Source of the DNA: Sulfitobacter albidus
GTDB lineage: Bacteria; Pseudomonadota; Alphaproteobacteria; Rhodobacterales; Rhodobacteraceae
NCBI RefSeq assembly: GCF_018200035.1
Contig: NZ_CP073581.1
Location: 3,344,501-3,408,500, forward strand
Direction: 5' to 3'
Length of the DNA stretch: 64,000 nucleotides
The notes below the pieces were generated by a model. That model was not told the DNA's origin. It ran no database searches and saw only the letters and a list, made by a program, of their open reading frames with translations. Shown in pieces: positions 28,128 through 63,365 of this stretch; the stretch's first letter is position 1, and each line of letters starts with the position of its first letter. Position numbers and translations under genes: made by a program.

Positions 28128-29459
28128 GGGTCATCCCCGGCACGAGGATCGACGGGACCACCCGGCTCAGCCAGTCGCGCGCGTCGTCGGCGGGCACCAT
28201 GGCGCCCAGCATGTCACGCAGATTGCCCGCGATCGTGCATTCGTTGACGGGATAGGTGATTTCCCCGTTCTCGATCCAGAAACCGGCAGCACCGCGGGAA
28301 TAATCGCCGGTGTTGGGATTGATCGTCGATCCGATCATCGAGGTCACGAGCAGCCCGGTGCCCATCTGCGCCAACAGATCCGCGCGCGTGGCCTGCGCGC
28401 CCGCCAGCCGCACGTTCCACGTGGCGGGTGAGGGGCCGCTGCCGGTGCCGCGCGCCGCATTCGCGGTTGAGCGCTGCCCCAGTTGACGCGCGGTCGCCAG
28501 ATCCAGCGTCCAGCCCTGCAACACGCCATCGGCCACGATAGTTCGGTTTGCCGTGGCCAGGCCTTCGGCATCGAAAGGGCGTGAGCCGGGCACGCGGGGC
28601 GGTGTGGTTCTTCCACCAGCGACAGATGCGCGGGCAGGATCCGCTTGCCCAGATCGTCGCGCAGAAAGGATGCGCCGCGCGCGATGGAGGATCCGTTCAC
28701 CGCGCCCAGCAGATGGCCGATAAGGCTGCTCGCAATCCGCTCGTCAAACAGCACCGGGTAGCGTCCCGTGGGCGGCTTGCGCGCGTCGAGCCGTTCGACC
28801 GCGCGGGCAGCAGCGCGGGTGCCGATCTCTTCCGGCGCGCGCAGATCGGCCTGGAAGATGCGGCTGTCACCGTCATAGTCCCGCTCCATCCCCGTCCCGG
28901 TGCCCGCGATCGCAAGACAGCTCAGACCCCGGCTGGTGCGGCGATAGCCGCCAGAAAAGCCGTTGCTGGCGGCGAGATGGATCTGGTCGGCGCTGTAGCC
29001 CGCACTGGCCGATTGCACCTGCGCAACGCCCGGCACCTCCAAGGCGGCGGCCTCGGCGCGGGCAGCGTCGTCCTGCAGGGCCGCAGGCGTGGGCTCATCG
29101 GTCGGATCGGCAAGCTGCAACGCCTCTGCATCCGCGCCCTGCGCGAGCATGTCGGGATCGGCGAGGCCCGCGTATGCGTCTTCGGGCGCCTCGCGGGCCA
29201 TGGCGACGGCGCGCGCCGCCATCTCGTCAATCGTGCGCGTGGCTGTGTCGGAGGCCGAGACAATTGCCAGCCGCTGCCCCACAAACACCCGCAGGCCGAT
29301 ATCGGTGCTTTCCTCGCGTTGCGCTTCTTCCAGCGCACCGCCACGCACATCCACCGAAAGCGACGTGCCGCGCGTGGCCATGGCGTCCGCCGCATCCGCA
29401 CCCGCGCGCTGCGCTGCCTCCAGCATCTGCGCGGTCAGCGCCTCAAGGGGGTTGGTCAT
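28114..29459 (-). pseudogene. tldE: TldE/PmbA metalloprotease subunit, frameshifted (probable sequencing error)
   Basis: TldE partners TldD in a zinc protease that trims unfolded peptides and modified peptides such as microcins. The ATG at 29457-29459 opens MTNPLEALTAQMLEAAQ and the family reads well through LPAHLSLVEEPHRP. The frame then shifts by one base and resumes as VPGSRPFDAEGLATANRTIV to the stop at 28114, with SGPSPATWNVRL, GLLVTSMIGSTINPNTGDYSRGA and the usual C-terminus. The break is at the four-G run 28596-28599; one extra G restores a ~448-residue protein. Nothing else in the gene is degraded, so it is probably intact in the cell. Confidence 0.88.
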
Positions 29460-29529
29460 GCAAATCTCCGGGGCTGTGGCATCGCACGACAGGTAGCCGC
29501 CCGCCCGCATCCTAGCAAGGGCAGGCGCC

Positions 29530-29566
29530 AAAAGAAAAAGGGCGGCCCGGTGTGCCCGAACCGCCC
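29530..29566 (-). terminator. Intrinsic terminator of the DUF2125 gene
   Basis: Read leftwards, GGGCGGTTCGG pairs with CCGGGCCGCCC (11 pairs, two G.T) around GCACA, followed by TTTTTCTTT. It lies between the DUF2125 gene and tldE. Confidence 0.9.
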
Positions 29567-29586
29567 CCTGCGCAGCGTCAGCTTGC

Positions 29587-31116
29587 CTATTTCAGACGTT
29601 GCCCGTTGGCCAGGATCTGACCCGCGTCGTTGAACTCGATGGTCGAGGTCAGCGTGTCCTCGCCCTGGCCCGGCACCGCGAACAGACCCATCATCATACG
29701 TGCGCCCATGGCTTGTTCCTGAGGCAGCAGGCCCATCGCCATCAGCTTGTCGATCAGCCCGTTGGCCCCAGCAAGATCGACGGTGACGGCGCCAACGGGC
29801 TTGGGAAAGCCCGGCAGCGTCGTCTTGTCGGTATTGTCAAAGGCCACATCGCCGGTCGCATCCAGCCGCGCCCCCACGGCATCCACCGTCAAGGTGTTGA
29901 TCTTGAGCGCGTCGATCTCACCCGGCGCCGTACCAGGAGCGAGCTGTGCCGCCGCTGCAGGGTCCAGCATGTCGAACAACAGCTTTGCCTTGCCGCTCAA
30001 GTCCAGCACCACGGTGGCGGGATCGCGGGGAAGCTGGGCAGAGGGATCGAAAAGGCCCCAGATGACATCCGACATCGAAAATTCAGTGAGGTTGAAACCC
30101 AGCGCAAAATCCTGCGGCGTGTCCGATTTCACGACCGGCGCGGCCAGCTCAAGCCCGGCGCTGGCCATCTGCGCTGAGAGCGGGATCGGCAGGCCCGCAA
30201 TCTGCGCCCCGATCAGCATGTCGGTGGCCCCAAGATCATAGCGCAGCCCGTCGGCGTCCATCTTGATGCGGTAGTCCCCGGCGACTGATCCGGTTTTGAT
30301 CCGGGTGGTGCCATCGGCGCTGGTAATGTCGATCAGGGTCTCACCGTTGCCCGTGGTGAACACACCGTCAAAGGCAAATCCCGCCTGCATTAGTGCATTC
30401 ATGTCCGCCGCGCTGGCCACGGCATCGACGGGCAGCGCGGTTGTCCCCTCGAAACCCACGGTCTGCGCGCGCATGGTCACGGAGCCGCCATCGTCGCCTG
30501 CCGGATCCTTGAAGGCGATGTCGTAGACGAGGTTGCTGGCGGAGTAGGTCTGATCATAGCTGCGCGTCTCACCGACGCTGACGTCGGTCTGCGACTGGAG
30601 ATTTTCGCCCGACAGATTGACGCGCATCGCCTCGCCCATATCGACACCATCGACAACCACGCCTGCGACACTGAAACCAAAGCTGTCGGCGGTGTAGTCA
30701 TAGCGTAACGCGTCCGCGCTGCCGCTTGCTGTCATGCGCTGGCCTGCCTGACTGTAGGTCAGCACGATATTCGCGGCTTCATCGGTGCTCTTGGGCTCGA
30801 TCTCAAGGGTGATCGGCATCGTGTCAGGCATGACCACATCGACGGTGCCATCGCCGTTTTCCACAAACGACAGCGATCCGATGCTGATCTGCATCGTCTC
30901 GATATCGGGGCCGCCCGCAAGGTTCATCGTGATGTCAGAGACAGTCAGCGTGTTGCCCGATGTGCTCTCTGTCGCCTCGACACCGTAGCCCATGCCAGAG
31001 AGATAGCCCTGCCAGTCCCCCCAAACCTCGGCGGCGGTCAGATCCGCCGCGGCGGAGGTGGCGATCAAGCCCAGCCCGAAGGCGGACCCGATAAGGGGAA
31101 CGATGTGTGTGGTCAT
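29587..31116 (-). CDS. DUF2125 secreted protein
   Basis: Exported protein of 509 residues from the ATG at 31114-31116 (MTTHIVPLIGSAFGLGLIATSAAA is the signal peptide; the open frame 20 residues upstream is not protein-like). The mature part is rich in short beta strands (GNTLTVSDITMNL, IETMQISIGSLSFVENGDGT and many Asp/Gly turns) and matches the alphaproteobacterial DUF2125 family, which has no known function. The strand-rich repeats and lack of TM segments suggest a periplasmic beta-rich protein. It ends in a strong terminator and begins a monocistronic unit. Confidence 0.82.
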   Translation of the reverse strand: MTTHIVPLIGSAFGLGLIATSAAADLTAAEVWGDWQGYLSGMGYGVEATESTSGNTLTVSDITMNLAGGPDIETMQISIGSLSFVENGDGTVDVVMPDTMPITLEIEPKSTDEAANIVLTYSQAGQRMTASGSADALRYDYTADSFGFSVAGVVVDGVDMGEAMRVNLSGENLQSQTDVSVGETRSYDQTYSASNLVYDIAFKDPAGDDGGSVTMRAQTVGFEGTTALPVDAVASAADMNALMQAGFAFDGVFTTGNGETLIDITSADGTTRIKTGSVAGDYRIKMDADGLRYDLGATDMLIGAQIAGLPIPLSAQMASAGLELAAPVVKSDTPQDFALGFNLTEFSMSDVIWGLFDPSAQLPRDPATVVLDLSGKAKLLFDMLDPAAAAQLAPGTAPGEIDALKINTLTVDAVGARLDATGDVAFDNTDKTTLPGFPKPVGAVTVDLAGANGLIDKLMAMGLLPQEQAMGARMMMGLFAVPGQGEDTLTSTIEFNDAGQILANGQRLK

Positions 31117-31258
31117 GGAAAAATCCTCGTCTCTAAATGCTCTACGCAGGGTCGGGGAATCGTGGCGAGGCGTCAAGGGTGGGGTGGCAGCCCGGCGTGT
31201 GAATTGCTAGTTCTGGGGCAATCCGGGTGCTTGGTGCGCCCAATCGAAAGGGAATAGC

Positions 31259-32005
31259 ATGGATATGAACGGCAAGACGGTGATGATCACGGGCGCCAGC
31301 CGAGGGATCGGTGCTTCGGCCGCGCGGATTTTTGCCGAGGCGGGCGCCAATGTGGCACTGCTCGCCCGCTCGCAGGATGACATCGCCGAAATCGCGGGCG
31401 AGATTGGTCAAAGTGCCATCGCCATCCCCTGCAATGTCGCGCGCTACGCCGAAATGACGGCGGCGGTGGAAACGACCGTGCAGGCATTCGGCGGGCTGGA
31501 CGTGCTGATCAACAATGCGGGCGTGGTCGATCCCATCGGCCACATCGGCGACACCGATCCCGAAGCATGGGGCCAGCTGATCGATATCAACCTCAAGGGC
31601 GTCTATTATGGCGTGCACGCGGCGCTGCCCGCGCTCAGGCAGGGCGGTGGATCGGTGCTGACCATCAGCTCCGGCGCGGCGCATAGCGCGATCGAGGGGT
31701 GGAGCGCCTATTGCTCCTCCAAGGCGGCGGTCAACATGTTCAACCGGGCGCTGCACAATGAGGAGGCCGCCAACGGCATCCGTGCCATCGGCCTGTCGCC
31801 CGGTACTGTCGCCACGCAGATGCAGCGCACGATCAAGGCGTCTGGCATAAATCCCGTCAGCCAACTTGATTGGGAAACGCACATCCCCGCCGACTGGCCC
31901 GCGAAATGCCTGCTTTGGATGTGCAGCGCCGAGGCAGACCGTTTTTGCGGGGACGAGATCTCGCTCCGCGACGAAGACATCCGGCGGGCGGTGGGTCTCA
32001 TATGA
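31259..32005 (+). CDS. SDR-family oxidoreductase
   Basis: Short-chain dehydrogenase of 248 residues. The nucleotide-binding TGASRGIG is at residues 11-18, NNAG near residue 84, the catalytic Ser in TISSGAAHS, and Tyr/Lys in YCSSK near residues 149-153, so the classical tetrad is complete. The lack of an Asp after strand 2 (VALLARSQDD, with Arg) suggests NADP(H). The substrate is unknown; coupling by ATGA to an enoyl-CoA hydratase-like gene suggests a hydroxyacyl or 3-ketoacyl substrate. Confidence 0.9.
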   Translation: MDMNGKTVMITGASRGIGASAARIFAEAGANVALLARSQDDIAEIAGEIGQSAIAIPCNVARYAEMTAAVETTVQAFGGLDVLINNAGVVDPIGHIGDTDPEAWGQLIDINLKGVYYGVHAALPALRQGGGSVLTISSGAAHSAIEGWSAYCSSKAAVNMFNRALHNEEAANGIRAIGLSPGTVATQMQRTIKASGINPVSQLDWETHIPADWPAKCLLWMCSAEADRFCGDEISLRDEDIRRAVGLI

Positions 32006-32610
32006 TCGAGCACCGCGCGCAGGACGGCATCACCACGGTCACGCTCAACCGGCCCGATAAGGCCAATGCGCTGACCGAGGCGATGCTGATCGAACTGTGC
32101 GAGATTGCCGAAGGCGCGGGTGACGCGCGCGCGTTCGTTTTGACGGGGCGCGGCAAGATCTTTAGCGCCGGGGCCGATCTGGAGGCCGCGCGCGCGGGTC
32201 TTGCCACATCGCCGCTGTGGGAGCGGTTGTCGGGCGCGATCGCGGATCTGCCGGGGCTGAGCATCGCCGCCCTCAACGGCACGCTTGCGGGGGGCGCGAT
32301 GGGCATGGCGTTGGCCTGCGATCTGCGGATCAGCGTCGCGTCGGCAAAATTCTTCTACCCGGTGATGAAGCTGGGATTTCTGCCCCAGCACTCCGATCCG
32401 GGGCGTCTGGCGACGCTGGTCGGTCCGGCACGCGCCAAGCTGATCCTGATGGGCGGGCAGAAGATCCTCGCCGACGAAGCATTGGCGATGGGCCTGATTG
32501 ACCGGATCGTGGAGGCGGATGCGCTGCTGGATGCCGCCCACGCGCTGTGCGCCGATACCGTTGCGGCATCGCCCGAAATCGCGCAGGGCATCAAGCGGAT
32601 GTGCCGTTAG
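32002..32610 (+). CDS. Enoyl-CoA hydratase/isomerase-family protein
   Basis: Crotonase-fold protein of 202 residues, shorter than the usual ~255 because the C-terminal helices are reduced. ATG at 32002 overlaps the SDR stop. Oxyanion-hole segments are FSAGADLEAAR near residues 54-64 and GGAMGMALACDLRIS near residues 98-112. The catalytic Glu positions of canonical hydratases are not obvious: the segment after the second hole reads AKFFYPVMKLGFLPQHSDPG, so it may be an isomerase or hydrolase type. It converges on the 24-residue lipoprotein gene and overlaps it by four bases. Confidence 0.87.
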   Translation: MIEHRAQDGITTVTLNRPDKANALTEAMLIELCEIAEGAGDARAFVLTGRGKIFSAGADLEAARAGLATSPLWERLSGAIADLPGLSIAALNGTLAGGAMGMALACDLRISVASAKFFYPVMKLGFLPQHSDPGRLATLVGPARAKLILMGGQKILADEALAMGLIDRIVEADALLDAAHALCADTVAASPEIAQGIKRMCR

Positions 32611-32681
32611 ATCAGCGGCACGAAGGGCACGTCGCAGGCGGCGAGTGTCAGAAGGGCGGCAAAGAGGGCAAGTTTCTGCAT
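32607..32681 (-). CDS. 24-residue putative lipoprotein
   Basis: Tiny gene of 24 codons: ATG at 32679-32681, stop TAA at 32607-32609, with AGGAAC seven bases upstream. The peptide starts MQKLALFAALLTLAAC, a textbook lipoprotein signal with lipobox LAAC (Cys16), and ends DVPFVPLI. After cleavage and lipidation only nine residues would remain. I recall similar CDVPFVPLI tails in roseobacters. It could act like LptM-type microproteins, but I have no evidence beyond shape. Confidence 0.65.
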   Translation of the reverse strand: MQKLALFAALLTLAACDVPFVPLI

Positions 32682-32733
32682 GGGTCTGTTCCTGTAGGCT
32701 GGTGTATGCTCTTGGCGTAGCCGTAACACAGCG

Positions 32734-33051
32734 TCATCGCTTGCGCATGCCCCCTGGCACCTTTGATTTGAACGACGGCGGTCGTTTGCTCACCCAGGCC
32801 GCGAATTTGGCCAGCCTCGGGTGGCTGCGCAGCGCTTCTGGCGTGTTGTAGTCGCGTGCAAGCTCGGCCTCGGAGAGGCTGGCGTGCACCTCGCGGTGGC
32901 AGATGTGGTGCATCAGGACCGTTGGCCCGCCTTTTCCCCCTTTCAGCTTGGGGATCAGATGATGCAGGCTTTGCGGAACACCTTTCGGGATCGGTCGCAG
33001 GCAGAGCGGGCAGATCGGATCGTCGGTGTGAATGTCGAGGGTGCGGGCCAC
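32734..33051 (-). CDS. HNH nuclease-domain protein
   Basis: Protein of 105 residues from a GTG at 33049-33051 with AGGA six bases upstream. The zinc knuckle CPLCLRPIP near residues 14-22 and the pair of His in SLHHLIPKLKGG, followed by HHICHREVHASLSEAE, make a full HNH fold with two C-x2-C-like metal sites. HNH proteins of this size occur both as free nucleases and as DNA-repair helpers; no mobile element or restriction system is adjacent. It is divergent from the mscS gene. Confidence 0.85.
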   Translation of the reverse strand: MARTLDIHTDDPICPLCLRPIPKGVPQSLHHLIPKLKGGKGGPTVLMHHICHREVHASLSEAELARDYNTPEALRSHPRLAKFAAWVSKRPPSFKSKVPGGMRKR

Positions 33052-33113
33052 GGGTTGATCCTGTCGAGGTGCTGCGCCAAGAGAATGTAACTGATTGCCC
33101 GGCCGGCAAGGGG

Positions 33114-34452
33114 ATGCGCGTGAATTTTGACTTGGACGACTATCCGCCCATCGTAGGGCAGATCGCAGGCTACGGCGTGCAGGGCTACGAGCTGGCGCTG
33201 GGCTGGCTGCTGAGCCCGGCCGCCTGGTCGCAATTCGCGGTGCTGGTCGCGGCCTATGTGCTGGCGGTGCTGATCGCGCGGCGGCTGCGCCCGGCGCTCA
33301 GCAATCTGATCGACCCGGGCGAAAAGCAGAATATGTTCACGGCGCCGCGCCAGTTCATCCTGCGGTTTTTGCCGTTGATCCTGCCGCTGCTGGCCTATGC
33401 GCTTACCGGTATCGGAGAGCAGGTGATCCGCTCGGTCTTTGACAGCGGTGCGGTGATTGCCTTTGGCAAGCGGGTGTTCCTGTTCCTCGCGGCGCGCGCC
33501 TTTGTGCGCGATATTCTGGGCGATCCGTTCCTGTCGGTGCTGGGCCGGTTTATCCTGCTGCCCATCGCCGCGCTTTATGCCGTTGGTCTGCTGGATACGG
33601 TCATCCTGCAGCTGACCGAAACGGTTGTGGGCGTGGGCAACATCCGGTTTTCGCTGATTTCCATCGTACGCGGCATCATCGCGGGATCGCTGCTTTTCTG
33701 GCTGGGGCAATGGTCCAACCAGCAGACCGCCGCCGCCATCGAAAAGCAGCAAGAGATGCGCCCCTCGATCCGTCAGCTGCTGATCAAGCTGGTGGAATTC
33801 ACGATCTTTGGCGTGGCTTTCATCCTGCTGATGAACATCATGGGGATCAATCTCGGTGCCCTTGCGGTGCTGGGGGGGCGATCGGTGTGGGTCTTGGTTT
33901 TGGCCTGCAAAAGATCGCGTCGAATTTTATCTCGGGCGTGATCCTGCTGGTCGAGGGGCAGGCGACCGTCGGCGATTTCGTGGAGCTTGACGGCGGTGAG
34001 GCGGGCACGATCGTCAAGATGACCGCCCGCGCCGCGATCCTTGAGACCTACGATGGCCGCTGGATCGTGGTGCCCAACGAGGATTTCATCACCACACGGG
34101 TGGTCAATTATTCCGACAGCGGGTCCGCCAACCGCTACGAGGCGCCGTTTTCCGTCAGCTACGACACCGACATCAACGAGGTGCCCGCCCTGATCGAAGC
34201 GGCGGTGGCCACCCATCCCGAAGTGCTGGATGAGCCCTACCCCCCGATTGCGAGCTGCGCGGCTTTGGCGAGAACGGCATCGATTTCGCGGTGGAGTTCT
34301 GGGTGAACGGGCTGGATGACGGGCCGAACAAATACACCTCCGACGTGCTGTTCCTGATCTGGAACGCGCTGCGCGATGCCGGGATCACAATCCCCTATCC
34401 CCAGCGCGTGGTGGAGATCAAAGGCGGGTTGCCCGGCGCCGATTCCGCGTGA
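33114..34452 (+). pseudogene. MscS-family mechanosensitive channel, two frameshifts (probable sequencing errors)
   Basis: Small-conductance mechanosensitive channel of the inner membrane that releases solutes on hypo-osmotic shock. From the ATG at 33114 the first frame gives an N-terminal membrane domain of several helices and leads to NLGALAVLGG. A one-base loss in the seven-G run 33872-33878 breaks the pore helix; the next frame continues AIGVGLGFGLQKIASNFISG and the MscS beta domain (VGDFVELDGGEAGTIVKMTAR, VPNEDFITTRVVNYS). A second loss in the six-C run 34240-34245 moves to a third frame that finishes GENGIDFAVEFWVNGL to the stop at 34450-34452. The restored protein would have about 445 residues. 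Confidence 0.88.
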
Positions 34453-35633
34453 GCCGGGCGGTCGTCATCGGCAGCGGCCCCGCCGGGCTGATGGCGGCGC
34501 AGGCGCTGACGCAGGCGGGCCACCGCGTCACGATTGCCGAGGCGAAACCATCGGCGGGGCGCAAGTTTCTCATGGCCGGGAAATCCGGGCTGAACCTGAC
34601 CAAGGACGAGGCGCCGGAAACCTTTGCCGACACCTACGCAGAGGCGAGCCCGCGTCTGCGCCCGATGCTGGCGGCATTGGGCCCGCAAGGGGTGATGGAC
34701 TGGGCGCGCGGGTTGGATCAACCGGTGTTCACTGGCACAAGCGGCAGGGTTTTTCCTGAGGCGATGAAAGCCTCGCCACTGCTGCGCGCGTGGCTCGGGC
34801 GGCTGATGCAGGATGGGGCCACTCTGCGTACCCGCTGGCGCTGGACCGGGTGGGAGGGCGGTGCGCTGGCGTTCGACACGCCCGATGGTGCGCAGACCCT
34901 TGATGCCGATGTGACGATACTGGCGCTGGGCGGGGCAAGTTGGCGCCGTCTTGGGTCGGATGGCGGATGGGCCAACACGCTGGCCGCGCGCGGTGTGCCG
35001 CTTGCGCCTTTTGCCCCGGCAAACGCTGCCGTGGCGCGCCCGTGGTCCGCGCATATGGCAGCACATTTCGGCACACCGCTCAAGGCGATCGGCCTGCGCT
35101 GCGGCCCCTACAGCAGCCGCGGCGAGGCGATCCTGTCGGCGTACGGGCTGGAGGGCGGCGGGATCTATAGCGTCAGTCGGGGGCTGCGCGAGGGCCATCC
35201 GCTGACACTGGACCTCGCGCCGGATCTGACGGCCGACGCGATCGCGGCGCGGCTCAGCGGCCCGCGCGGCAAAGCGTCGTTTTCCAATCACCTGCGCAAA
35301 CGGCTGAAGCTGGATCCGGTGAAACGCGCGCTCTTGCAGGAACTGGCGCGCCCCTTGCCACAGGATCCCGGTGTGCTCGCCGCCGTCGTCAAGGCGTTGC
35401 CGGTGAGCGACGCCACCCTGCGTCCGATGGACGAGGCGATCTCGACCGCAGGAGGTATTGTGTGGGACGGGCTGACGGAAGATCTGGAGATCAAAGCACT
35501 CCCCGGCGTGTACGCCGCCGGAGAGATGATTGATTGGGAGGCACCGACGGGCGGTTATCTGATCACCGCCTGTCTGGCCACCGGCCTGCACGCGGGGCGC
35601 GCGGCGGCAGCCCGTCTGGCGGCGGGCGCCTAA
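34449..35633 (+). CDS. HI0933/YhiN-type flavoprotein (TIGR03862-like)
   Basis: FAD-binding oxidoreductase of 394 residues, of unknown substrate. The GTG start overlaps the mscS stop (GTGA). The dinucleotide fold is VVIGSGPAGLMAAQALTQAG at residues 5-24. AKPSAGRKFLMAGKSGLNLTK at ~34-54 is diagnostic of the HI0933 family, and the C-terminal FAD segment is VYAAGEMIDWEAPTGGYLI. The members are linked by some to RNA or cofactor reduction, but the role is not settled. It converges on the GST gene with a four-base overlap. Confidence 0.88.
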   Translation: MSRAVVIGSGPAGLMAAQALTQAGHRVTIAEAKPSAGRKFLMAGKSGLNLTKDEAPETFADTYAEASPRLRPMLAALGPQGVMDWARGLDQPVFTGTSGRVFPEAMKASPLLRAWLGRLMQDGATLRTRWRWTGWEGGALAFDTPDGAQTLDADVTILALGGASWRRLGSDGGWANTLAARGVPLAPFAPANAAVARPWSAHMAAHFGTPLKAIGLRCGPYSSRGEAILSAYGLEGGGIYSVSRGLREGHPLTLDLAPDLTADAIAARLSGPRGKASFSNHLRKRLKLDPVKRALLQELARPLPQDPGVLAAVVKALPVSDATLRPMDEAISTAGGIVWDGLTEDLEIKALPGVYAAGEMIDWEAPTGGYLITACLATGLHAGRAAAARLAAGA

Positions 35634-36220: not shown

Positions 36221-36238
36221 GTCTGTCTCTCCCTTGAA

Positions 36239-37236
36239 TTACCTGCCGCGAAACATCGCCAGACGGATGAACAACCGCTCCACAATCGCCAACGCCGGGG
36301 CGGTCTGCCCGGCGGAGCGAAGCTTGAGGTCGGTATCCGTCAACATCTCTAGCGCCTCTTCCAGCTTTACCGCCCCCCAGTCGCGCGCCTGACGACTCAC
36401 CCGGTCGCGGTCGCGCACGCCGTAGACCGGTGCGCCGGGGTTGCAGGCGATGCGGTGCAACGTGCGAAAATGGCGCATCGCCATGATGCTGAGCGTGACG
36501 GCATTCACACCCTGGCTTTGCAGGCGCCGCATCAACGGGCCGATCTGCGCCGATTGCGCCTCAGCCACGACGTTGAGGATATCATCCACTCCCGCTTCGA
36601 CCGAGGCAGGGGCGCAGGCGGCAATATCGTCGAGCGTGATGGGTGCGTCGGGATCGCTGAGTTTGTAGAGCGCGAGTTTTTCCAGCGTCTGACGAAAATC
36701 ACCGGGATCCAGCGCGCGCGCCAGCTCTTCGAGCGCGCCCATGGCGGTGCCGTCGACGGTGAGTTTCGCATCGGTGAGCATAGCCTCGATCTCGGCCCGG
36801 GTGGGCGGATTGTCGTAGATGGCAAGGGCGTAGGCGTTGGGGTGGCTCTCGAACGCCTTGCGCAGTTTCGAGGTCTTTTTCAGATCACCCGCGCTGATCA
36901 CGATCTGGGCGTCGCCCGGTTGCCAGTCGGCAAGGGTGTCGAGGATCGGTTTGGCGAACTGCTCGGTCGCGCCCTCGACAAAGGCGGCGCGGGGGCCCGG
37001 AAAGAATCCGACGGCCTTGATGGCGTCGTTCAAGAGCGCGGGCTCGCGCCGCAGATCACCGGCTGGCAGGCGGGTCAGGCGCATTTCCTCCTCGGCCTGC
37101 GGTCCCAGCAGCGCCTTGAGATAATCCTGCCGCTTGATCGCCACGCGCATGGCATCGGCGCCGAACACCAAAAGCCCGAGTGCGTCGCGCGGGGCTTGGC
37201 GATCAGCCCGGCGGCCTCGCGCATCGACAGCTTCAT
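36239..37236 (-). pseudogene. holA: DNA polymerase III delta subunit HolA, frameshifted (probable sequencing error)
   Basis: Clamp-loader delta subunit that opens the sliding clamp. The true start is the ATG at 37234-37236, which overlaps the lptE stop (ATGA) and reads [15 protein letters not shown]. The frame then shifts by one base in the run 37191-37194 (CCCC on the coding strand) and resumes as RDALGLLVFGADAMRVAIKRQDYLKALLG, continuing with the family features (PRAAFVEGATEQFAKPIL, ISAGDLKKTSKLRKAFE, LDDIAACAPASVEAGVDDIL) to the stop at 36239. One extra base gives a ~332-residue HolA. Since holA is normally essential, a real null is unlikely. Confidence 0.9.
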
Positions 37237-46322: not shown

Positions 46323-47236
46323 ATGGAACTGAACCTCTCTGCCGCCGCACCCGATGCCGATCTGATCAAGGATACGACCGAAGCCACCTTTATGGCCGAT
46401 GTGGTCGAAGCCTCGCAAACGACGCCGATCATTGTGGATTTCTGGGCGCCCTGGTGCGGGCCTTGCAAAACGCTCGGCCCCCAGCTTGAGGCGGCGGTTG
46501 TTGCTGCCAAGGGCGCGGTCAAGATGGTCAAGGTCAACGTCGATGAGGCGCAGATGATCGCCGGTCAGCTGCAAATCCAGTCGATCCCAACGGTGTATGC
46601 CTTTCACAAGGGCCAGCCCATCGACGGTTTTCAGGGTGCCGTGCCGCAATCCGAGATTCAGGCGTTCGTTGATCGGGTCGTAAAGGCATCGGGGGCGAGG
46701 CGCCGACCGATACGCTCAACGACGCGGTCGAGGCCGCCGAGGAAATGCTGGGCGAGGGGGCCGCCACGGATGCGGCGGAGACCTTTGCCGCGATCCTCGG
46801 AGAGGATCCGATGCATGCCGGTGCCTACGGCGGCATGGTGCGCGCGCATATCGCGATGGGAGAGTTGGATCAGGCCGAAGGGCTGCTGAACGGCGCCCCC
46901 ATCGAGATCTCGAAATCGCCGGAGCTTGAGGCCGCGCACGCGCAGCTGGAACTTGCCCGCCAGGCGCAGGACGCAGGCCCGGTGACAGAGCTGCAAGCCG
47001 CTGTCGAGGCTGATCCCGAGGATCATCAGGCGCGGTTCGATCTGGCGCAGGCGCTGCATGCGAATGGCGATCCCGGAGCGGCCGTGGATCATCTGCTGGA
47101 GTTGTTCAAACGCGACAAGGAATGGAACGACGGGGCGGCGAAAACCCAGCTTTTCACGATCTTTGACGCGCTAAAACCCAACGATCCCATCGTGTTGAAT
47201 GGACGGCGAAAACTAAGCTCCATGATATTTGCCTGA
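46323..47236 (+). pseudogene. cnoX: Thioredoxin-TPR co-chaperone CnoX/YbbN, frameshifted (probable sequencing error)
   Basis: Redox-regulated holdase that delivers clients to GroEL. The ATG at 46323 starts a thioredoxin domain (residues ~20-120) with VDFWAPWCGPCKTLGPQ (active site CGPC) and cis-Pro in QSIPTVYAF. After FVDRVVKASG the frame breaks in the five-G run 46691-46695; the other frame carries on with AVEAAEEMLGEGAATDAAETF and the TPR-like helices (ELEAAHAQLELARQ, DHQARFDLAQALHANGD) to the end at 47236. One extra G gives a full ~304-residue protein. The rest is intact. Confidence 0.9.
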
Positions 47237-52038: not shown

Positions 52039-52051
52039 GAGGACGAGCACC

Positions 52052-55114: not shown

Positions 55115-55150
55115 ACGGCTCTTCCCCTTTATGCGGGAGGGGCCGTTTTT
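55115..55150 (+). terminator. Intrinsic terminator of ftsK
   Basis: ACGGCTCTTCCC pairs with GGGAGGGGCCGT (12 pairs, two T.G) around CTTTATGC and is followed by a short T-run. Confidence 0.85.
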
Positions 55151-55274
55151 CTGTGGAACGCGAGGATGCCCCCAGCGTTGGGGAGGGCGACGGGCGTTTA
55201 CCCGCCGAGTGCTATCGCATAACAGCCGCACGCGTCCTATGTTGGCGCAAAGAAGACGAGACAGGACACATCAC

Positions 55275-55880: not shown

Positions 55881-55883
55881 CGC

Positions 55884-56240: not shown

Positions 56241-56821
56241 CGCAGGCGGCAGGCGGCGATCTGGTCGCGGTACATCAGCGAGCGGGCCGCGACCTTGGAC
56301 GACACGCCAACCAGCCACGGCTTGCGGTTGTAGCTGGCGCGCGAAAAGCCGGTGTGCCCTTCGTGATAGGCTAGGTACTGATTGCGCGCGTCCGTGAGCG
56401 GGATACCGTTCCGCTCACGGCTGATGTTCATATACCAGCCCATGAAGTCGGTCGCGTCGCGGATATCGTCCCGCTTGGCGCTGCGGCGGCCCTGATCGGC
56501 GCGGTATTCATCCCATGTGGCGTCCAGTGCCTGAGAGTATCCGAACGCGCTTGATTGCCGCCCCATCGGGATCACGCCCAGCACATAGCGGAACGGCGTG
56601 CGCGCGTCCGAGACGAACTTGCTTTCCTGATGTATGGTGGCCATCTGCACGTGGATGGGGACGCCCCATTTACGCTCCACATTCTTGAAGGCTCTGTGGT
56701 AATTCGGGCGCTGTTTCAGGATCGTGCAGGCATTGTCCAGATCCCGCGGAGGGGTGCTGGAGGAACCGCCACAGCTTGCCAGCAGCAGCACGATCAACAT
56801 AGCGCGAAGGGGTGTTTTCAT
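56237..56821 (-). CDS. Lytic transglycosylase (SLT-domain) lipoprotein
   Basis: Lipoprotein of 194 residues that cleaves the glycan strand of peptidoglycan. Lipobox: LIVLLLASCGG (Cys17). The SLT-like domain covers residues ~40-190: KWGVPIHVQMATIHQESKF carries the catalytic Glu in HQES, GYSQALDATWDEYR is the next motif, and NQYLAYHEGHTGFSRASY the later one. It matches the 1C-like family (AYHEG). It is in one unit with the VOC gene. Confidence 0.9.
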   Translation of the reverse strand: MKTPLRAMLIVLLLASCGGSSSTPPRDLDNACTILKQRPNYHRAFKNVERKWGVPIHVQMATIHQESKFVSDARTPFRYVLGVIPMGRQSSAFGYSQALDATWDEYRADQGRRSAKRDDIRDATDFMGWYMNISRERNGIPLTDARNQYLAYHEGHTGFSRASYNRKPWLVGVSSKVAARSLMYRDQIAACRLR

Positions 56822-56896
56822 CTGCCTCTCGCCTCAATTTGGTTTTTTATTTTGACGCTAGTTTAGCGCAGAAATCCGTTCCGCAACAGGGGTATC

Positions 56897-57805
56897 CTAT
56901 AACAAAAACGCCAGCAGCAGCGGCAGAGCGCCGACCGACATCAGCGTCGAGATCACGACCAGCCCCGCGACCGCCTGCGCATCGGCGCCGTATTTCTCGG
57001 CCAGCAGGTAGGACGTGACGGCAACCGGGGTTGCGACCTGAAGCACCAATACGCCAAAAGCCACAGGATCGAGCGCAAACCAGCGCCCCACGCCCCAGGC
57101 GATGCCTGCACACAGCATGAGTTTGATCGCTGAAATCACCACGGCCTGCCCCACTCCGCGCGGTTTCAGCCGCGCCACGGCAACGCCCAAGGTGATCAGC
57201 ATCAAGGGGATCGCCATCTGCCCGATCAGCGCTAGGGTGTTGGTCAGAAAGGCCGGTGTCTGCCAGTCCTGCCACAGGAAAATCCCGCCCAGCACCGTCG
57301 CCCAGACCAGTGGTTCGCGCAGCACTTTCCCAAAGCTGCCAGAGCCTGCGACCAGCCAGATCCCGTAGGTAAACGTCCAAACCGCCATGATCGCAAAGAC
57401 CACGACGGCATATCCCAACCCCTCGTCGCCAAAGGCAAAAAGCGCCAGCGGCAGGCCAAGGTTTCCGGTGTTGCCAAAGATGATCGGCGCCTCATAGGTC
57501 CGCCGATCCAGCCGCCCGAGCCGTACCAATGCAGCGGCCACCAACGTGATCGCGCCGTAGGCCGCAAGCGTGGCGAGCGACAGCGCGGTCAGCGCCTGCG
57601 GCGCAATCTCGGTCCGCATGAGCGAGACAAAGATCAGGCAGGGCACCGCAAGGCTGGTCGCCAGTTGCGTGACAAAGCCGATGCGGTATTCGAATCCCAG
57701 CTTGACCCAGGCAAATCCGACGGCGGCCAGCAAGAACACGGGCGCCACGATCTCGAGCACGGTTATGGTTAAGTGCACAGTCTGTTTCCTGATTTCTACA
57801 CGCAT
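56897..57805 (-). CDS. AEC-family transporter (second copy)
   Basis: Inner-membrane permease of 302 residues, the second AEC carrier in the window. About ten helices, with the conserved segments TVLEIVAPVFLLAAVGFAWVKLG, GNTGNLGLPLALFAFGDEG near residues 111-129 and ATPVAVTSYLLAEKYGADAQ in the second half. The start could instead be a GTG 15 residues later. Its substrate is unknown and it is not closely similar to the copy at 693. It is divergent from hspQ. Confidence 0.86.
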   Translation of the reverse strand: MRVEIRKQTVHLTITVLEIVAPVFLLAAVGFAWVKLGFEYRIGFVTQLATSLAVPCLIFVSLMRTEIAPQALTALSLATLAAYGAITLVAAALVRLGRLDRRTYEAPIIFGNTGNLGLPLALFAFGDEGLGYAVVVFAIMAVWTFTYGIWLVAGSGSFGKVLREPLVWATVLGGIFLWQDWQTPAFLTNTLALIGQMAIPLMLITLGVAVARLKPRGVGQAVVISAIKLMLCAGIAWGVGRWFALDPVAFGVLVLQVATPVAVTSYLLAEKYGADAQAVAGLVVISTLMSVGALPLLLAFLL

Positions 57806-57862
57806 CGGTTGGACAAATTGCCCTTGTCTCAGCTACAAAGCCTCGGTAGGGGGCGCAGTGCA

Positions 57863-58189
57863 ATGATCCGAACACGCGCGAAATATCATCTTGGCCAAGT
57901 GGTCCGTCACCGCAAGCACCCTTTTCGCGGGGTGATCTTCGATGTGGACCCTGAGTTCGCCAATACCGACGAATGGTACGAGGCGATCCCTGAGGACAGT
58001 CGGCCCGTCAAGGACCAGCCATTCTATCACCTGCTGGCCGAAAACGATCAAAGCTATTACGTCGCCTATGTGTCAGAGCAGAATCTGGTGGCCGATTATT
58101 CCGGCGAGCCGGTGGACCATCCCGACATCCCCGACCTGTTTGGCCCGTTCGAAAACGGCGCCTACCCGCTGCATTTTCAGCTGAACTGA
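57863..58189 (+). CDS. hspQ: Heat-shock protein HspQ
   Basis: Small hemimethylated-DNA-binding-like protein of 108 residues from the ATG at 57863; longer in-frame starts lack similarity. The core AKYHLGQVVRHRKHPFRGVIFDVDPEF at residues ~6-32 and the later NDQSYYVAYVSEQNLVAD are the family hallmarks (YccV/HspQ). In E. coli it modulates Lon-dependent degradation and DnaA stability; whether that holds here is not known. The 11-bp-phased GTRCAY array begins four bases after its stop. Confidence 0.92.
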   Translation: MIRTRAKYHLGQVVRHRKHPFRGVIFDVDPEFANTDEWYEAIPEDSRPVKDQPFYHLLAENDQSYYVAYVSEQNLVADYSGEPVDHPDIPDLFGPFENGAYPLHFQLN

Positions 58190-58192
58190 GCC

Positions 58193-58245
58193 GTACACGG
58201 GGCGTACACCACCTGTGCACAGGGCGTGCATACGATTTTGTACAC
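58193..58245. repeat. 11-bp-phased GTRCAY array after hspQ
   Basis: Hexamers GTACAC (58193), GTACAC (58204), GTGCAC (58215) and GTGCAT (58226) are spaced exactly 11 bases start to start, so they lie on one face of the helix; a fifth, GTACAC (58240), follows after 14 bases. The stretch lies between the convergent ends of hspQ and ggt, so it is not an obvious promoter. No known element that I recognise fits. The rest of the gap (58246-58415) shows nothing. Confidence 0.6.
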
Positions 58246-58415
58246 GTTGGCCGGGCTGTTCGGTGAGGCTCACGGGGGCGCCGGGAGGATCGCGCCCGAC
58301 AGAAACACCTCCCCGCGGAGCGGAAAGGGCCGGGGCGCAGGCAAAGGGTTTCGAAAAAGACCTGCCCCCGTAGCCAGGAACGCGAGTGCGTCCGGTGCGG
58401 CTCTTGCCAGCGCCC

Positions 58416-59990
58416 TCACATCCCCAGCGCGCAGCCGTCCTTGCGCGGATCGGACGCGCCTTCGAGCACGCCGCTGTCGTGGATCTTGATCGCCTGGGCA
58501 CCGCCGATGGCGACTTGGGGGATGTCGACGGTGTGGCCCATCTCTGACAGCTCGGCGCGCACGGCGTCTGAATAGCCGCGTTCGACCTTGAGCGTGCCTG
58601 CGTCCGAAAACGCGCGCGGGGCGTCGATGGCCGCCTGCGGGTCCATGCCGAAATCACTGAGGTTGGAGGCAAAGCGCGCGTGGCCGTTGGGCTGATACGC
58701 GCCGCCCATGACGCCGAAGGGTATGGTTACGCGCCCGCCCTCGACGATCATGCCGGGGATGATCGTGTGCATGGGGCGCTTGCCGCCCTTGAGCTCATTC
58801 GGGTGGCCCGCCTCAAGCGTGAAGCCAGCGCCCCGGTTTTGCATCAGGATGCCGAATTTGTCCGACGCGATGCCGGAGCCAAAGCCGTGGAAGATCGAAT
58901 AGATCAATGAGACGGCCATGCCGTCGCCGTCGACCACGGTGATATAGATCGTGTCCTTGTGCACGGCCTCCGACACCGCGCGGGGCGATTCCATGGCACG
59001 GGCAGGGTCGATCAGGGCCGCGAGCGCGCGGGCCGTGTCCATCGACAGCATGTGTTCAGTGCGCGTCGCGTAATCGGCATCCGAGATAAAGCGGTCGCGC
59101 GCGTCATAGGCAAGCTTGGCCGCTTCGGCCTCGATATGCACACGCTGGGCGCCGTTCGGGTCCATCGAGGCGATGTCGAATTGCGCGAGAATGTTGAGCA
59201 TCAGGATCGCGGTGGCGCCTTGCCCGTTTGGCGGATGCTCGACCACGTCGAGATCCTTGTAGCGGCCCGCGATGGGGTCGGTGGGGGTGCAGGCGACATT
59301 TGCAAAATCCTCCGCCGTGTGTTTGCCGCCCAGCGCGGTGAGCGTCGCGATCATGTCATCGGCGATCTCACCGGTGTAGAACGCGTCGCGCCCGTCTTTG
59401 GCGATGCGGCGCAGGACTTCGGCCTGCGTGGGGGAGCGCCAGATCTGGCCTGCGGTGGGGATTTTCCCGTCGAGCAAGTAGTGCTCGCGTGCGGCACCTT
59501 GCAGCTTTTCCGTCTCAAGCGCCCAGTCAAAGGCCACGCGTGGGGCGACGGGCACGCCCGCCTCGGCGTAGTGGATGGTAGGGGCGAGGATCGCGTCGAG
59601 GCCGATTTTGCCGACGGTGTCGGACAGGTGACAGAATGCGTCGATGGCGCCCGGTACGGTGACGGCGTGTGCGGAGTATGTGGGCACGGTCGCCTCACCC
59701 GCGTCGCGCAGCGCGCTTGCGTCCAATGCTGCCGGGCTGCGGCCGGATCCGTTGAGCGCCTGCACCGGTTTGCCGGGCTCGGACCACAGCACAAAGCAGT
59801 CGCCGCCGATCCCGGTCATCTGTGGCTCGCAGATCCCCAGAAGGACCGCGCCCGCAATGGCCGCATCCATGGCGTTGCCGCCACGCGCCAGCGTGTCGAT
59901 GGCGACTTTCGCGCCCAGCGGGTGCGAGGTGGCACACATGCCGCCGGTGCTGAAAACGGGGGAACGGCCGGGAAGGTGGAAATCGCGCAT
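58416..59990 (-). CDS. ggt: Gamma-glutamyltransferase-family protein
   Basis: N-terminal-nucleophile hydrolase of 524 residues, self-cleaving into two subunits. From the ATG at 59988-59990 (MRDFHLPGRSPVFSTGGM). The catalytic Thr is in HKDTIYITVVDGDGMAVSLIYSIF near residue 360, matching the TTHYSVVD-type site; the large subunit has GGNAMDAAIAGAVLLGICEPQMTGIGGDCF. No signal peptide is visible, so it may act in the cytoplasm, as do GGT-like acylases. It may therefore use acyl substrates rather than glutathione. It stands alone in a leftward orientation. Confidence 0.9.
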   Translation of the reverse strand: MRDFHLPGRSPVFSTGGMCATSHPLGAKVAIDTLARGGNAMDAAIAGAVLLGICEPQMTGIGGDCFVLWSEPGKPVQALNGSGRSPAALDASALRDAGEATVPTYSAHAVTVPGAIDAFCHLSDTVGKIGLDAILAPTIHYAEAGVPVAPRVAFDWALETEKLQGAAREHYLLDGKIPTAGQIWRSPTQAEVLRRIAKDGRDAFYTGEIADDMIATLTALGGKHTAEDFANVACTPTDPIAGRYKDLDVVEHPPNGQGATAILMLNILAQFDIASMDPNGAQRVHIEAEAAKLAYDARDRFISDADYATRTEHMLSMDTARALAALIDPARAMESPRAVSEAVHKDTIYITVVDGDGMAVSLIYSIFHGFGSGIASDKFGILMQNRGAGFTLEAGHPNELKGGKRPMHTIIPGMIVEGGRVTIPFGVMGGAYQPNGHARFASNLSDFGMDPQAAIDAPRAFSDAGTLKVERGYSDAVRAELSEMGHTVDIPQVAIGGAQAIKIHDSGVLEGASDPRKDGCALGM

Positions 59991-60209
59991 GGGAGCCTCG
60001 CTGGTCTGGTCAATTGCGCAGCAACGTAGACCGGAGCGGGGGGAGTGCCAATGTGCGAAAGGAAAGTGCTCCGGCGCCACGTACTGGGTGGGGGCAATGA
60101 AACGCAGCGCCGGAGGAAGCTATATGCAGCTACAGGACCGTATATGACGGTCAAGCGTGGCAGCAATGAGACGCGGCGGCGGCGGGTTTGGGGTGTTTTC
60201 GCGGAAGGA

Positions 60210-60656
60210 TCAGCCCGAAAGAGGTAGACGCAGGGAGAGCCGGTTTTCGGCACCGATGCGGGCGTAGCGCACGTCTTGCGCCAGTGTCTGGATCATGAAC
60301 CAGCCAAAGCCGCCTTCGGGCAGGGTCTGGGTGGGCAGGTCGATCTGCGGCGGCGCGCCCGCGGGGGCCTGGCCACCGGGCATCGGCGTGCCGGGATCGC
60401 TGATCAGCAGATGCAGCCCGGCAGGGTCGCGCCGCCCCTCGACGCGGATGTCGTGCAATTCGCAGGTCTGCGCCAGTGCGTGCTCGACGATGTTGTTGAG
60501 CGCTTCGGCCAGCACCAGTTCGACAGTCCCGCTGTCGTCGGGGCTGAGCGCGAGGGGCGCGAGATGCGCCATGACTTCGGCGAGGCCCTCGCGCACGGCG
60601 GCCTCGGACCCCGGCACCCGGACCACAAAACGGGTCTGCGGGGCGGTCTGGGTCAT
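60210..60656 (-). CDS. RsbW-like anti-sigma / serine-kinase ATP-binding protein
   Basis: GHKL-ATPase-type protein of 148 residues. N-box: VLAEALNNIVEHALA near residues 50-64; G1 box: LLISDPGTPMPG; G2 box: GGFGWFMIQTL near residues 115-125. Such proteins bind a sigma factor or phosphorylate an STAS partner. The partner STAS gene overlaps by ATGA just upstream. The matching sigma factor and phosphatase (PP2C) are not in this window. Confidence 0.88.
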   Translation of the reverse strand: MTQTAPQTRFVVRVPGSEAAVREGLAEVMAHLAPLALSPDDSGTVELVLAEALNNIVEHALAQTCELHDIRVEGRRDPAGLHLLISDPGTPMPGGQAPAGAPPQIDLPTQTLPEGGFGWFMIQTLAQDVRYARIGAENRLSLRLPLSG

Positions 60657-60991
60657 CCGCGCAGCTCTGCCAGGGCGCCGTCGACGGTGTCGTAGACGCC
60701 AAAAACCGAATCCATGCGGGTCAGCCGGAACACCTTGTCCACGGTGGGGGTCAGCCCGGCCAGCACGAGGCGGCGATCGGGGGCCAGCGCCTTCATCGCG
60801 GCGACGATGGCGCCCAGGCCGCTGGAATCGATGAATTGCACGTGGTGCAGATCAAGAAGCACGGTTTCCCGTTCGCCTTCGGTGATGTCGCGCATGCGAT
60901 CCTTGAACGACAGTGCGACGGAGGCGTCGATGCGCGGCTCCTGCACGGTGACGACTTGTAGTTGCGGTTCTTTCGAGCTGGTCAGGTCCAT
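60653..60991 (-). CDS. STAS-domain anti-anti-sigma factor (RsbV-like)
   Basis: Antagonist protein of 112 residues from the ATG at 60989-60991. The STAS fold is visible as VVTVQEPRIDASVALSFKDRM, LLDLHHVQFIDSSGLGAIVAAM near residues 47-68 (the second Ser of IDSS is the conserved phosphorylation site), and LVLAGLTPTVDKVFRLT. Its dephosphorylated form would bind the kinase encoded downstream and free a sigma factor or another target. It is co-translated with the kinase gene, and the pair is divergent from the thiolase gene. Confidence 0.88.
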   Translation of the reverse strand: MDLTSSKEPQLQVVTVQEPRIDASVALSFKDRMRDITEGERETVLLDLHHVQFIDSSGLGAIVAAMKALAPDRRLVLAGLTPTVDKVFRLTRMDSVFGVYDTVDGALAELRG

Positions 60992-61080
60992 GATACATTC
61001 CTGCAAAATTCGGATGCGATCCCTCTTAGGGGTCAAAACCTAACAACCGATAACCGGCCCCGGGCCGAGGAGGATTTACG

Positions 61081-62253
61081 ATGCGTAATGTGGTCATCGC
61101 GGGGGCATCCCGCACGCCGATGGGTGGATTTCAGGGGGCGTTCGACGGGGTCACCGCCGCCGATCTGGGCGGTGCGGCGATCCGCGCGGCGCTGGCCGGT
61201 GCCGGTGCCACGACGGTCGATGAGGTGCTGATGGGCTGCGTTCTGCCCGCAGGACAGGGGCAGGCGCCTGCGCGGCAGGCGGGATTCGCCGCCGGTCTGG
61301 GCGAGGACGTGCCCGCCACCACGCTCAACAAGATGTGCGGATCGGGGATGAAGGCGGCGATGATTGCGTTCGATCAGATCGCATTGGGCCATACCGAGAC
61401 GATGATCGCGGGCGGCATGGAATCGATGACCGGCGCGCCCTACGTGCTGCCCAAGATGCGCGGCGGCGCGCGGTTGGGGCATGGTGCGGTCGTGGATCAC
61501 ATGTTTCTGGACGGGTTGGAGGACGCCTATGACAAGGGCCGTCTGATGGGCACTTTCGCGGAGGATTGCGCGTCGGCATATCAGTTCACCCGCGCGGCGC
61601 AGGACGAATACGCGCTGGCGTCGCTGTCGCGCGCGCTGGAGGCGCAGGAAAGCGGGGCGTTCGCCGATGAGATCACCCCGTTCGAGGTGGCGGGCCGCCG
61701 GGGGGCGGTGACGGTCGCGGCGGACGAGCAACCCGGCAACGCGCGCCCCGACAAGATCCCGCAGCTGAAACCAGCCTTCCGCAAGGACGGGACGGTGACG
61801 GCGGCGAATTCATCGTCGATCAGCGACGGGGCGGCGGCGCTGCTGCTGGCCTCGGAAGAGACTGCCGCGGCGCGGGGGCTGACGGTGCGCGCGCGTATCC
61901 TTGGCCACGCAAGCCACGCGCAGGCGCCGGGGCTGTTCACCACCGCCCCCGTTCCGGCGGCGCAAAAGCTATTGAAGCGCGTCGGCTGGGCCAAAGAGGA
62001 CGTGGACCTGTGGGAGGTGAACGAGGCCTTTGCCGTGGTGCCCATGGCCTTCATGCACGAAATGGGGCTGAGCCATGACATCGTGAACGTGAACGGCGGC
62101 GCCTGTGCGCTGGGCCATCCGATTGGCGCGTCGGGCGCGCGGATTATGGTGACGCTGCTGAACGCGCTGGAAAAACGCGGGCTCAAACGCGGGGTCGCCG
62201 CGATCTGTATTGGCGGGGGCGAGGGCACGGCCATCGCGATCGAGCGGGTCTGA
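61081..62253 (+). CDS. Acetyl-CoA C-acetyltransferase (thiolase)
   Basis: Biosynthetic or degradative thiolase of 390 residues. Catalytic Cys: TTLNKMCGSGMKAAMIAFD near residue 89; active His in NEAFAVVPMAFMHE near residue 347; second Cys in GGACALGHPIGASGAR near residue 375. A strong GAGGAGG ribosome-binding site lies eight bases before the ATG. Acetoacetyl-CoA formation (PhaA-like) or beta-oxidation are both possible. Its stop overlaps the next start by one base (TGATG). Confidence 0.93.
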   Translation: MRNVVIAGASRTPMGGFQGAFDGVTAADLGGAAIRAALAGAGATTVDEVLMGCVLPAGQGQAPARQAGFAAGLGEDVPATTLNKMCGSGMKAAMIAFDQIALGHTETMIAGGMESMTGAPYVLPKMRGGARLGHGAVVDHMFLDGLEDAYDKGRLMGTFAEDCASAYQFTRAAQDEYALASLSRALEAQESGAFADEITPFEVAGRRGAVTVAADEQPGNARPDKIPQLKPAFRKDGTVTAANSSSISDGAAALLLASEETAAARGLTVRARILGHASHAQAPGLFTTAPVPAAQKLLKRVGWAKEDVDLWEVNEAFAVVPMAFMHEMGLSHDIVNVNGGACALGHPIGASGARIMVTLLNALEKRGLKRGVAAICIGGGEGTAIAIERV

Positions 62254-62717
62254 TGCGGATTGACTATGCCGCCACCGCGCGGGCGATTGCCTCGCTCACC
62301 GACGGGGAAACCGACGAAGTCGCGCTGATGGCCACCGTGGTATGTGAGCTGCACCACGCCGACGACCGATTCGACTGGACCGGGTTTTACCGGGTGACGG
62401 GGCCGGAAATGCTCAAGATCGGGCCATATCAGGGCGGGCACGGGTGTTTGCAGATCCCCTTTGCGCGCGGGGTGTGCGGGGCAGCGGCGCGCACGGGGCA
62501 GGTGCAGCTGGTCGATGACGTGGATGCCTTTCCGGGCCACATCGCCTGCGCATCCTCGACCCGGTCCGAGATCGTTTTGCCGGTGACGGGCGCGGGCGGT
62601 ACGTTGCTGGGGGTTCTGGATATCGACAGCGACCAGCCGGCGGCGTTTGACGCAGCGGACGCGGCAGCATTGGAGGGGATCTTGCGCGATGTTTTTGGCG
62701 ACGTGAAAAAATACTAG
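62253..62717 (+). CDS. msrC: Free methionine-R-sulfoxide reductase (GAF-domain)
   Basis: GAF-fold protein of 154 residues that reduces free Met-R-O. Signatures: DWTGFYRVTGPEMLKIGPYQG, GVCGAAARTGQ and the active-site segment CASSTRSEIVLPV near residues 99-111; conserved Cys in the CGAAA and CASS positions support fRMsr function. It overlaps the thiolase stop by one base. The palindrome 62702-62728 covers its stop codon. Confidence 0.9.
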   Translation: MRIDYAATARAIASLTDGETDEVALMATVVCELHHADDRFDWTGFYRVTGPEMLKIGPYQGGHGCLQIPFARGVCGAAARTGQVQLVDDVDAFPGHIACASSTRSEIVLPVTGAGGTLLGVLDIDSDQPAAFDAADAAALEGILRDVFGDVKKY

Positions 62718-62728
62718 ATTTTTTCACG
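62702..62728. promoter_or_regulatory. 11-bp-arm palindrome in front of the XRE-cupin gene
   Basis: CGTGAAAAAAT and ATTTTTTCACG form a perfect inverted repeat around ACTAG. The loop includes the msrC stop TAG. It ends 65 bases before the XRE-cupin start, so it may be both a terminator of the thiolase-msrC unit and an operator for the regulator. Confidence 0.6.
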
Positions 62729-62793
62729 AACCTCGGGCAACAGTTGACGCACCGGCGCGGGCGCGCCGGGAATCGTTTGCAACCCGAGGGACC

Positions 62794-63365
62794 ATGCAGC
62801 ACCAGACTCCCGATCTGCCGCACACGCTTGGTGTTGATCTGCGCGCGCTGCGCCGGTCGCGGGGCGTCACGCTGGCGGATCTGGCGGACGCGTTGGGCCG
62901 CTCGGTCGGCTGGCTGAGCCAGGTGGAACGGGATAAATCGGAGCCTTCGCTGAGCGATCTGCGCGCGATTGCCGCGTTCTTTGACGTGCCGGTGTCGATC
63001 CTGTTCCGCCACGATGCCGCCCCGCGGGAGAGGCGGGATATATCGTGCGCAGCAAGGCGCGTCGCCCCATCGGCGGCAGCATCGAGGGGCTGAGCGAGGA
63101 ATTGCTGTCGCCCGATCTGACGGATGATTTCGAGGTGGTCCATTCCACCATTGCGCCCGGTGCGCGGCAGCCCGAATGGGTGATACGCCCGACGCAGGAG
63201 GTCGGCTATCTGATGTCCGGTACGCTGGATCTGGAAGTGGCGGGGCAGACCCACCGCCTGCATCCCGGCGACAGTTTCCGTGTTCGGGGCGAGCCGTTTC
63301 GCTGGTCGAACCCCGCGGACACGCCCGCCATCGCGATCTGGGTGATCGCCCCGCCGGTGTATTGA
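62794..63365 (+). pseudogene. XRE-family regulator with C-terminal cupin domain, frameshifted (probable sequencing error)
   Basis: Regulator of the HTH-cupin class. N-terminal Cro/CI-type helix-turn-helix: LRALRRSRGVTLADLADALG, SVGWLSQVERDKSEPSLSDL. The frame breaks after ILFRHDAAP in the CCCCGCGGG stretch 63020-63028, and the next frame gives the cupin domain (VVHSTIAPGARQPEWV, VGYLMSGTLDLEV, HPGDSFRVRGEPFRWSNP) to the stop at 63365. One extra C (or G) restores ~190 residues. It precedes a LysE exporter by one base and may regulate it. The ligand is unknown. Confidence 0.87.

Follow-up and report, generated by a model that had tools for sequence, protein, structure and literature searches.

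Single-base frameshifts at short G/C runs in a Sulfitobacter albidus genome assembly: very probable consensus errors

Introduction

Long-read bacterial assemblies are known for homopolymer errors that fragment genes (PMC12007338, PMC8011154), and similar errors are described for long-read-only assemblies (PMC8812927). In the parts of these reports used here, the systematic errors of nanopore sequencing are said to be homopolymer indels for the most part (Homopolish, PMC8011154), and false deletions predominate in the principal Pseudomonas example given for Kastor, a nanopore case in which A/T deletions outnumber G/C deletions and insertions also occur (PMC12007338). Mutator lines likewise accumulate homopolymer indels of both kinds, with a slight deletion bias, a slight insertion bias or an insertion bias in the lines that these papers describe (PMC5854121, PMC4316635). 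A survey of frame transitions takes the view that non-orphan frameshift genes occurring as singletons are likely to reflect indel mutations or errors of sequencing, in the portion of it drawn on here (PMC3711429).

The subject of the present analysis is a window of the Sulfitobacter albidus genome, by which we mean the whole 64,000-nucleotide stretch from base 3,344,501 to base 3,408,500 of contig 1. A sequence-only reading of this window had proposed six single-base frameshifts in five genes, all at G or C runs, and had attributed them to a systematic under-call of homopolymers and not to gene decay. The genome consists of five contigs with a total length of 3.86 Mb (contig 1, 3,441,674 bases; the remaining contigs, 192,820, 87,586, 73,622 and 64,458 bases), and this layout of one 3.44 Mb contig and four of 64–193 kb suggests that the assembly was made from long reads. 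Its completeness is 96.19%, compared with 99–100% for 17 among the 23 same-genus genomes listed. On the 64 kb contig (C5) lies a photosynthesis gene cluster, with bch and puf genes, that resembles the clusters of named Sulfitobacter plasmids.

Methods

Open reading frames (ORFs) of relatives were used as queries in a purpose-written protein-to-DNA aligner that permits one-base frame changes at a cost. Genes with less than 55% identity or fewer than 60 aligned codons were left out of the counts. Frameshifts were kept where at least 12 residues with at least 60% identity were aligned on either side, and each breakpoint was assigned the longest run within 7 bases. By this assignment 13.7% of coding positions drawn at random (20,000 in all) would count as near a G/C run of at least 4 bases; such runs occupy 3.6% of the aligned coding bases. 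Thirty of 37 listed genes could be named, using the reference's own copies.

The closest same-genus relative used, G001, has a leuS identity of 84% and is syntenic over the window, and the genes aligned to five relatives span 90.5% of the window. Outside the window, the genome was sampled near 1.00, 1.70–1.88, 2.50–2.68 and 3.26–3.34 Mb and in the first 20 kb of contig C5. The reference was G001 for the sampled stretches and a plasmid region of Sulfitobacter sp. S190 for C5. The stretches at 1.00 and 3.26–3.34 Mb show low synteny to G001 and gave five and nine usable genes, respectively. A further stretch, at 0.30–0.38 Mb, was left out; a 6 kb piece of it (C1:340001–346000) finds hardly any DNA match in three genomes of the genus and is probably strain-specific or island DNA. 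With the window included, the sample amounts to 344 aligned genes and 114,831 codons.

The eight retained comparisons gave 72 raw frameshifts (60 deletions and 12 insertions). The flank rule kept 44 of these (41 deletions and three insertions) and removed 28 (19 deletions and nine insertions), some of which were at G/C runs. Ten comparisons between relatives only gave 37 raw frameshifts (27 deletions and ten insertions), from which five distinct sites were kept, a single one of these being at a G/C run of at least 4 bases.

Frameshifts in the window

Alignment with the G001 ORFs placed frame changes at 28597, 33874, 34242, 37190, 46693 and 63023, with the window one base short at each. The only other frame changes in this alignment were a compensating pair (1656/1709) from a mis-chosen ORF with 62% identity. 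All six of the frameshifts that had been proposed are thus present in the five genes and at the G/C runs given for them. Comparison with close relatives had been suggested as a check, and in the alignments to five relatives the window is one base short at all six runs. Wherever they aligned, the relatives show single open frames at these sites.

The tldE/pmbA-type gene (28120..29459, minus strand) has one frame break, at a G4 run (28596..28599); the G001 copy contains Pfam PmbA_TldD domains and matches NCBIfam PmbA below the cut-off. This break passes the flank filter in all five relatives, with G003 placing it 6 bases off. The gene for an mscS-type mechanosensitive channel (33114..34440, plus strand) is broken twice, at a G7 run (33872..33878) and at a C6 run (34240..34245), and Pfam MS_channel_2nd is found in the open piece between the breaks; both pass the filter in three of the five relatives, G011 and G003 having no DNA match there. 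In holA (36251..37236, minus strand), which encodes the delta subunit of DNA polymerase III and for which the G001 copy scores above the cut-off of NCBIfam TIGR01128, the frame breaks near the start at a G4 run (37191..37194). The filter is passed in four of the five relatives, while G003 flags position 37177 but falls below it.

The gene for a cnoX-type thioredoxin with TPR (46323..47233, plus strand; Pfam Thioredoxin and TPR on the G001 copy) has one break, at a G5 run (46691..46695), which passes the filter in five of five relatives. The last gene, for an XRE-type regulator with a cupin domain (62788..63362, plus strand; Pfam HTH_31 and Cupin_2 on the G001 copy), is broken once at 63020..63028, where a C4 run (63020–63023) is followed by a nearby G3. 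Here the filter is passed in two of the five relatives, and G018, G003 and G002 give no row. No premature stop besides the shifts was found by alignment in the five window genes.

Frameshifts elsewhere in the genome

The pattern proved to be wider than first described, recurring in six of the seven other sampled regions. Across the whole sample, G/C runs of 4–7 bases account for 36 of the 44 frameshifts kept; all 36 are deletions, and they fall in 33 genes, so that about one in ten of the aligned sampled genes (33/344) reads as broken. The deletions are distributed as six in the window, three just upstream of it, one at 1.00 Mb, six at 1.70 Mb, ten at 1.78 Mb, four at 2.50 Mb, six at 2.58 Mb and none in C5, giving seven of eight regions with such events. 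In the first 20 kb of C5 (4,891 codons) no kept frame break was found at a G/C run. The breakpoint touches its run in 34 of the 36 cases and is 2 and 5 bases off in the other two. No insertion at a G/C run of at least 4 bases was found among the 44 kept rows.

The frequency of deletion rises steeply with run length, from 12/2210 runs (0.5%) at length 4 to 13/579 (2.2%) at length 5, 8/81 (9.9%) at length 6 and 3/16 (18.8%) at length 7; the single run of length 8 is unaffected (0/1). In contrast, the 1163 A/T runs of 4–7 bases carry zero deletions, whereas the rates seen for G/C runs of each length predict 13.3 (P = 1.7e-6). No sequence motif was found around the failing runs, the flanks of the 36 events being close to what length-weighting predicts; G runs with C at both ends, for instance, were observed 16 times compared with 11.7 expected. 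A depletion of long G/C runs relative to the relatives was also looked for and no clear difference was seen at lengths 4–7, runs longer than 7 being too few. At about 104 deletions per Mb of coding DNA, the whole genome would by extrapolation contain some 350 such sites, with a coding fraction of 0.88 taken from the G001 region.

The corresponding background in the relatives, from one comparison for each of the five in the region syntenic with the window, is one G/C-run event in 90,099 codons. In the alignments to the window, G011 adds an insertion row at window position 63496, which corresponds to a G7 run that is one base short in G011's own copy of the gene. We note that the short run lies at joined-loci position 67523, in the gene corresponding to window 63367–63987, and that it may be an error of like kind or a real mutation.

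The eight kept rows that are not at G/C runs of at least 4 bases were set aside. They comprise five deletions (1711347, 1711445, 1732568, 2622897 and C5:14650) and three insertions (1720426, 2575939 and 1829749), and fall at residues 20–92 of the relative's ORF; two of the insertions, at gene starts, are within 7 bases of a T4 run. From their sequence context these rows look like cases in which the ORF was begun ahead of its true start, least clearly so for 2622897. In prfC, ffh and mraZ the set-aside break precedes the point at which the NCBIfam profile begins, and in the other genes start mis-setting was judged from a nearby start codon. Six of the 36 counted events, that in holA included, also lie within 32 residues of the start of the relative's ORF.

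Broken genes

The broken genes that score above a curated NCBIfam cut-off include holA, a gpmI-type phosphoglycerate mutase gene, prfC, nuoG, nuoE and ffh, together with recN, ddl, murB, mraY and murE; a broken ftsI-type penicillin-binding-protein gene has matches below cut-offs only. In model bacteria holA, ffh, mraY, murB, murE and ddl are mostly essential. In a whole-genome profile search ffh appears only as pieces in two frames, and no copy of full length was found; a further match to the ffh model covers model positions 30–295 and is presumably FtsY. There is a single match to mraY in the whole genome, beginning at model position 25 compared with position 5 in the G001 copy, so this gene is without its start in frame and has no second copy.

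Five of these genes, ddl, murB, mraY, murE and the ftsI-type gene, lie within 19 kb (C1:1811000–1830000), each broken at a G/C run. In this cell-wall cluster 5/141 runs are affected compared with 31/2746 elsewhere (Fisher P = 0.029, towards more), and such genes are therefore not spared. The median identity to the references is 0.840 for broken genes and 0.824 for intact genes (Mann–Whitney P = 0.71). A KefB/KefC-like efflux gene contains three G/C-run frame breaks in about 210 bases (C1:1864387–1864595).

The mismatch-repair gene mutL is split into two frames (C1:15324–16900), which overlap at about 15.66–15.69 kb, where there is a G4 run. Among the 23 same-genus genomes searched, the split is found in this one only; in the other 22 mutL is a single open frame of at least 620 codons. 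In S. albidus mutS is open over 909 codons.

Interpretation

The reading frames are broken in the sequence as given, as they would be in ordinary gene decay, in which pseudogenes arise through independent mutation. Decay is nevertheless extremely unlikely: the breaks show a single direction and a single kind of site across 33 unrelated genes, the five window genes have no extra premature stop in the alignments, and the identity of broken genes to their references is not lower than that of intact genes. It was on this unreduced identity that decay was rejected. The sequence-only reading had itself named phase variation as an alternative, and homopolymer tracts can indeed switch genes on and off, to go by the part of the frame-transition survey used here (PMC3711429). 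Phase variation would lead one to expect long tracts in surface or modification genes, whereas the runs are just 4–7 bases long and most of the genes have housekeeping functions; in the relatives checked these genes keep a single frame, and the events are all in one direction. Slippery homopolymers could also support programmed ribosomal frameshifting or transcriptional slippage, but the slippage tracts described in the same part of the survey have at least 8 bases or are paired shorter ones (PMC3711429), and the number of unrelated genes affected also argues against it. The relatives use one frame in these genes, and therefore there is no conserved shift site, which was the ground for rejecting this explanation. 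We attach practically no credence to phase variation or to programmed shifting.

The split mutL gives a different rival its strongest point, since homopolymer indels would be expected from a broken mutL alone. The frameshifts would then be real and the strain a mismatch-repair mutator in which homopolymer slippage had accumulated genome-wide. Mutator lines do gain single-base homopolymer indels at a rate that grows with run length, as described for one set of lines (PMC5854121), but the published lines have both kinds of indel in the parts of the reports cited (PMC5854121, PMC4316635), whereas all 36 events here are deletions. In addition, genes taken to be essential are broken, with ffh and mraY having no second copy, and the runs of the cell-wall cluster are affected no less than those elsewhere. 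With deletions only, and with genes taken to be essential among those broken, a mutator is unlikely, and we regard it as very improbable. The mutL break itself carries the same signature as the suspected errors, being at a short G run like the rest, and mutS is open; in the simplest account the same error has broken mutL as well. Less probable again is a composite in which the mutL break is real, single bases are lost from G/C runs alone in a natural mutator, and the essential genes are rescued by slippage in transcription or translation.

In our view, the six breaks are almost certainly consensus errors of the assembly, in which G/C runs were called one base short, and the genes are very likely unbroken in the living strain. 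We infer that the fault lies in the reads or the consensus step rather than in the DNA. On this account G or C runs would be called one base too short during the read or consensus step, with a miscall probability that climbs steeply with run length; the errors would have stayed in the assembly without being polished out. The position, direction, base type and length dependence of the deletions, and their recurrence in most of the sampled regions, are direct observations, as are their indifference to gene importance and their near-absence in the five relatives. The data support an artefact that is specific to G/C runs, depends on run length and is widespread in the parts of the genome sampled. 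The completeness of 96.19%, below that of most same-genus genomes listed, also speaks for this reading. Several observations count against this reading, namely the broken mutL (as in a real mutator), the one similar site in G011, the sparing of A/T runs, the absence of events in 20 kb of C5 and the eight kept rows off G/C runs.

The original attribution to a systematic under-call of homopolymers, and not to decay, is strengthened by the 30 further G/C-run deletions outside the window, by a rate that grows with run length, by the breakage of single-copy genes taken to be essential and by the lack of any loss of conservation in the broken genes. It is refined on two points: A/T runs escape the deletions, and the broken genes include mutL. 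Homopolymer under-calling usually affects all four bases, and the A/T runs here do not show this. In our view the four-base effect is a usual but non-defining trait of under-calling, and its absence limits guesses at the platform. The G/C-only profile fits no sequencing platform that could be identified; A/T runs led in the nanopore example, in the part of that report used here (PMC12007338). A literature search on G/C-specific under-calling found no matching paper among those listed, as judged in part from titles and the openings of abstracts.

The biological interest of these errors is low and their importance for data quality is moderate. Pseudogene counts, statements on the presence or absence of pathways, mutator inference and pangenomes based on this assembly would mislead, as the functions that appear broken include cell-wall synthesis, replication, protein-export and mismatch-repair genes. 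Such errors may also imitate a mutator, the assembly seeming to hold both a broken repair gene and its expected consequences. The G/C-only, deletion-only profile provides a usable fingerprint with which to flag similar assemblies.

Comparison with known systems

The frameshift genes of the GeneTack survey resemble those described here in that the reading frame changes at a homopolymer (PMC3711429), but the S. albidus sites are not conserved in relatives, are mostly in housekeeping genes and lie at runs shorter than the tracts reported in the part of the survey used. Mismatch-repair-deficient lines (Vibrio mutS, PMC5854121; Pseudomonas fluorescens, PMC4316635) share with this genome homopolymer indels that depend on run length and a repair gene that is, or reads as, broken. 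As far as the cited parts of these reports extend, those lines hold insertions as well as deletions, whereas S. albidus shows 36 deletions to no insertions, with genes taken to be essential among those hit. In the Pseudomonas example of Kastor (PMC12007338), within the part of it cited, A/T runs led and insertions were present, whereas here only G/C runs are affected and no run insertion was kept. With the unpolished long-read assemblies treated by Kastor (PMC12007338) and Homopolish (PMC8011154), as described in the same parts of those reports, the S. albidus assembly has in common single-base homopolymer indels that break reading frames.
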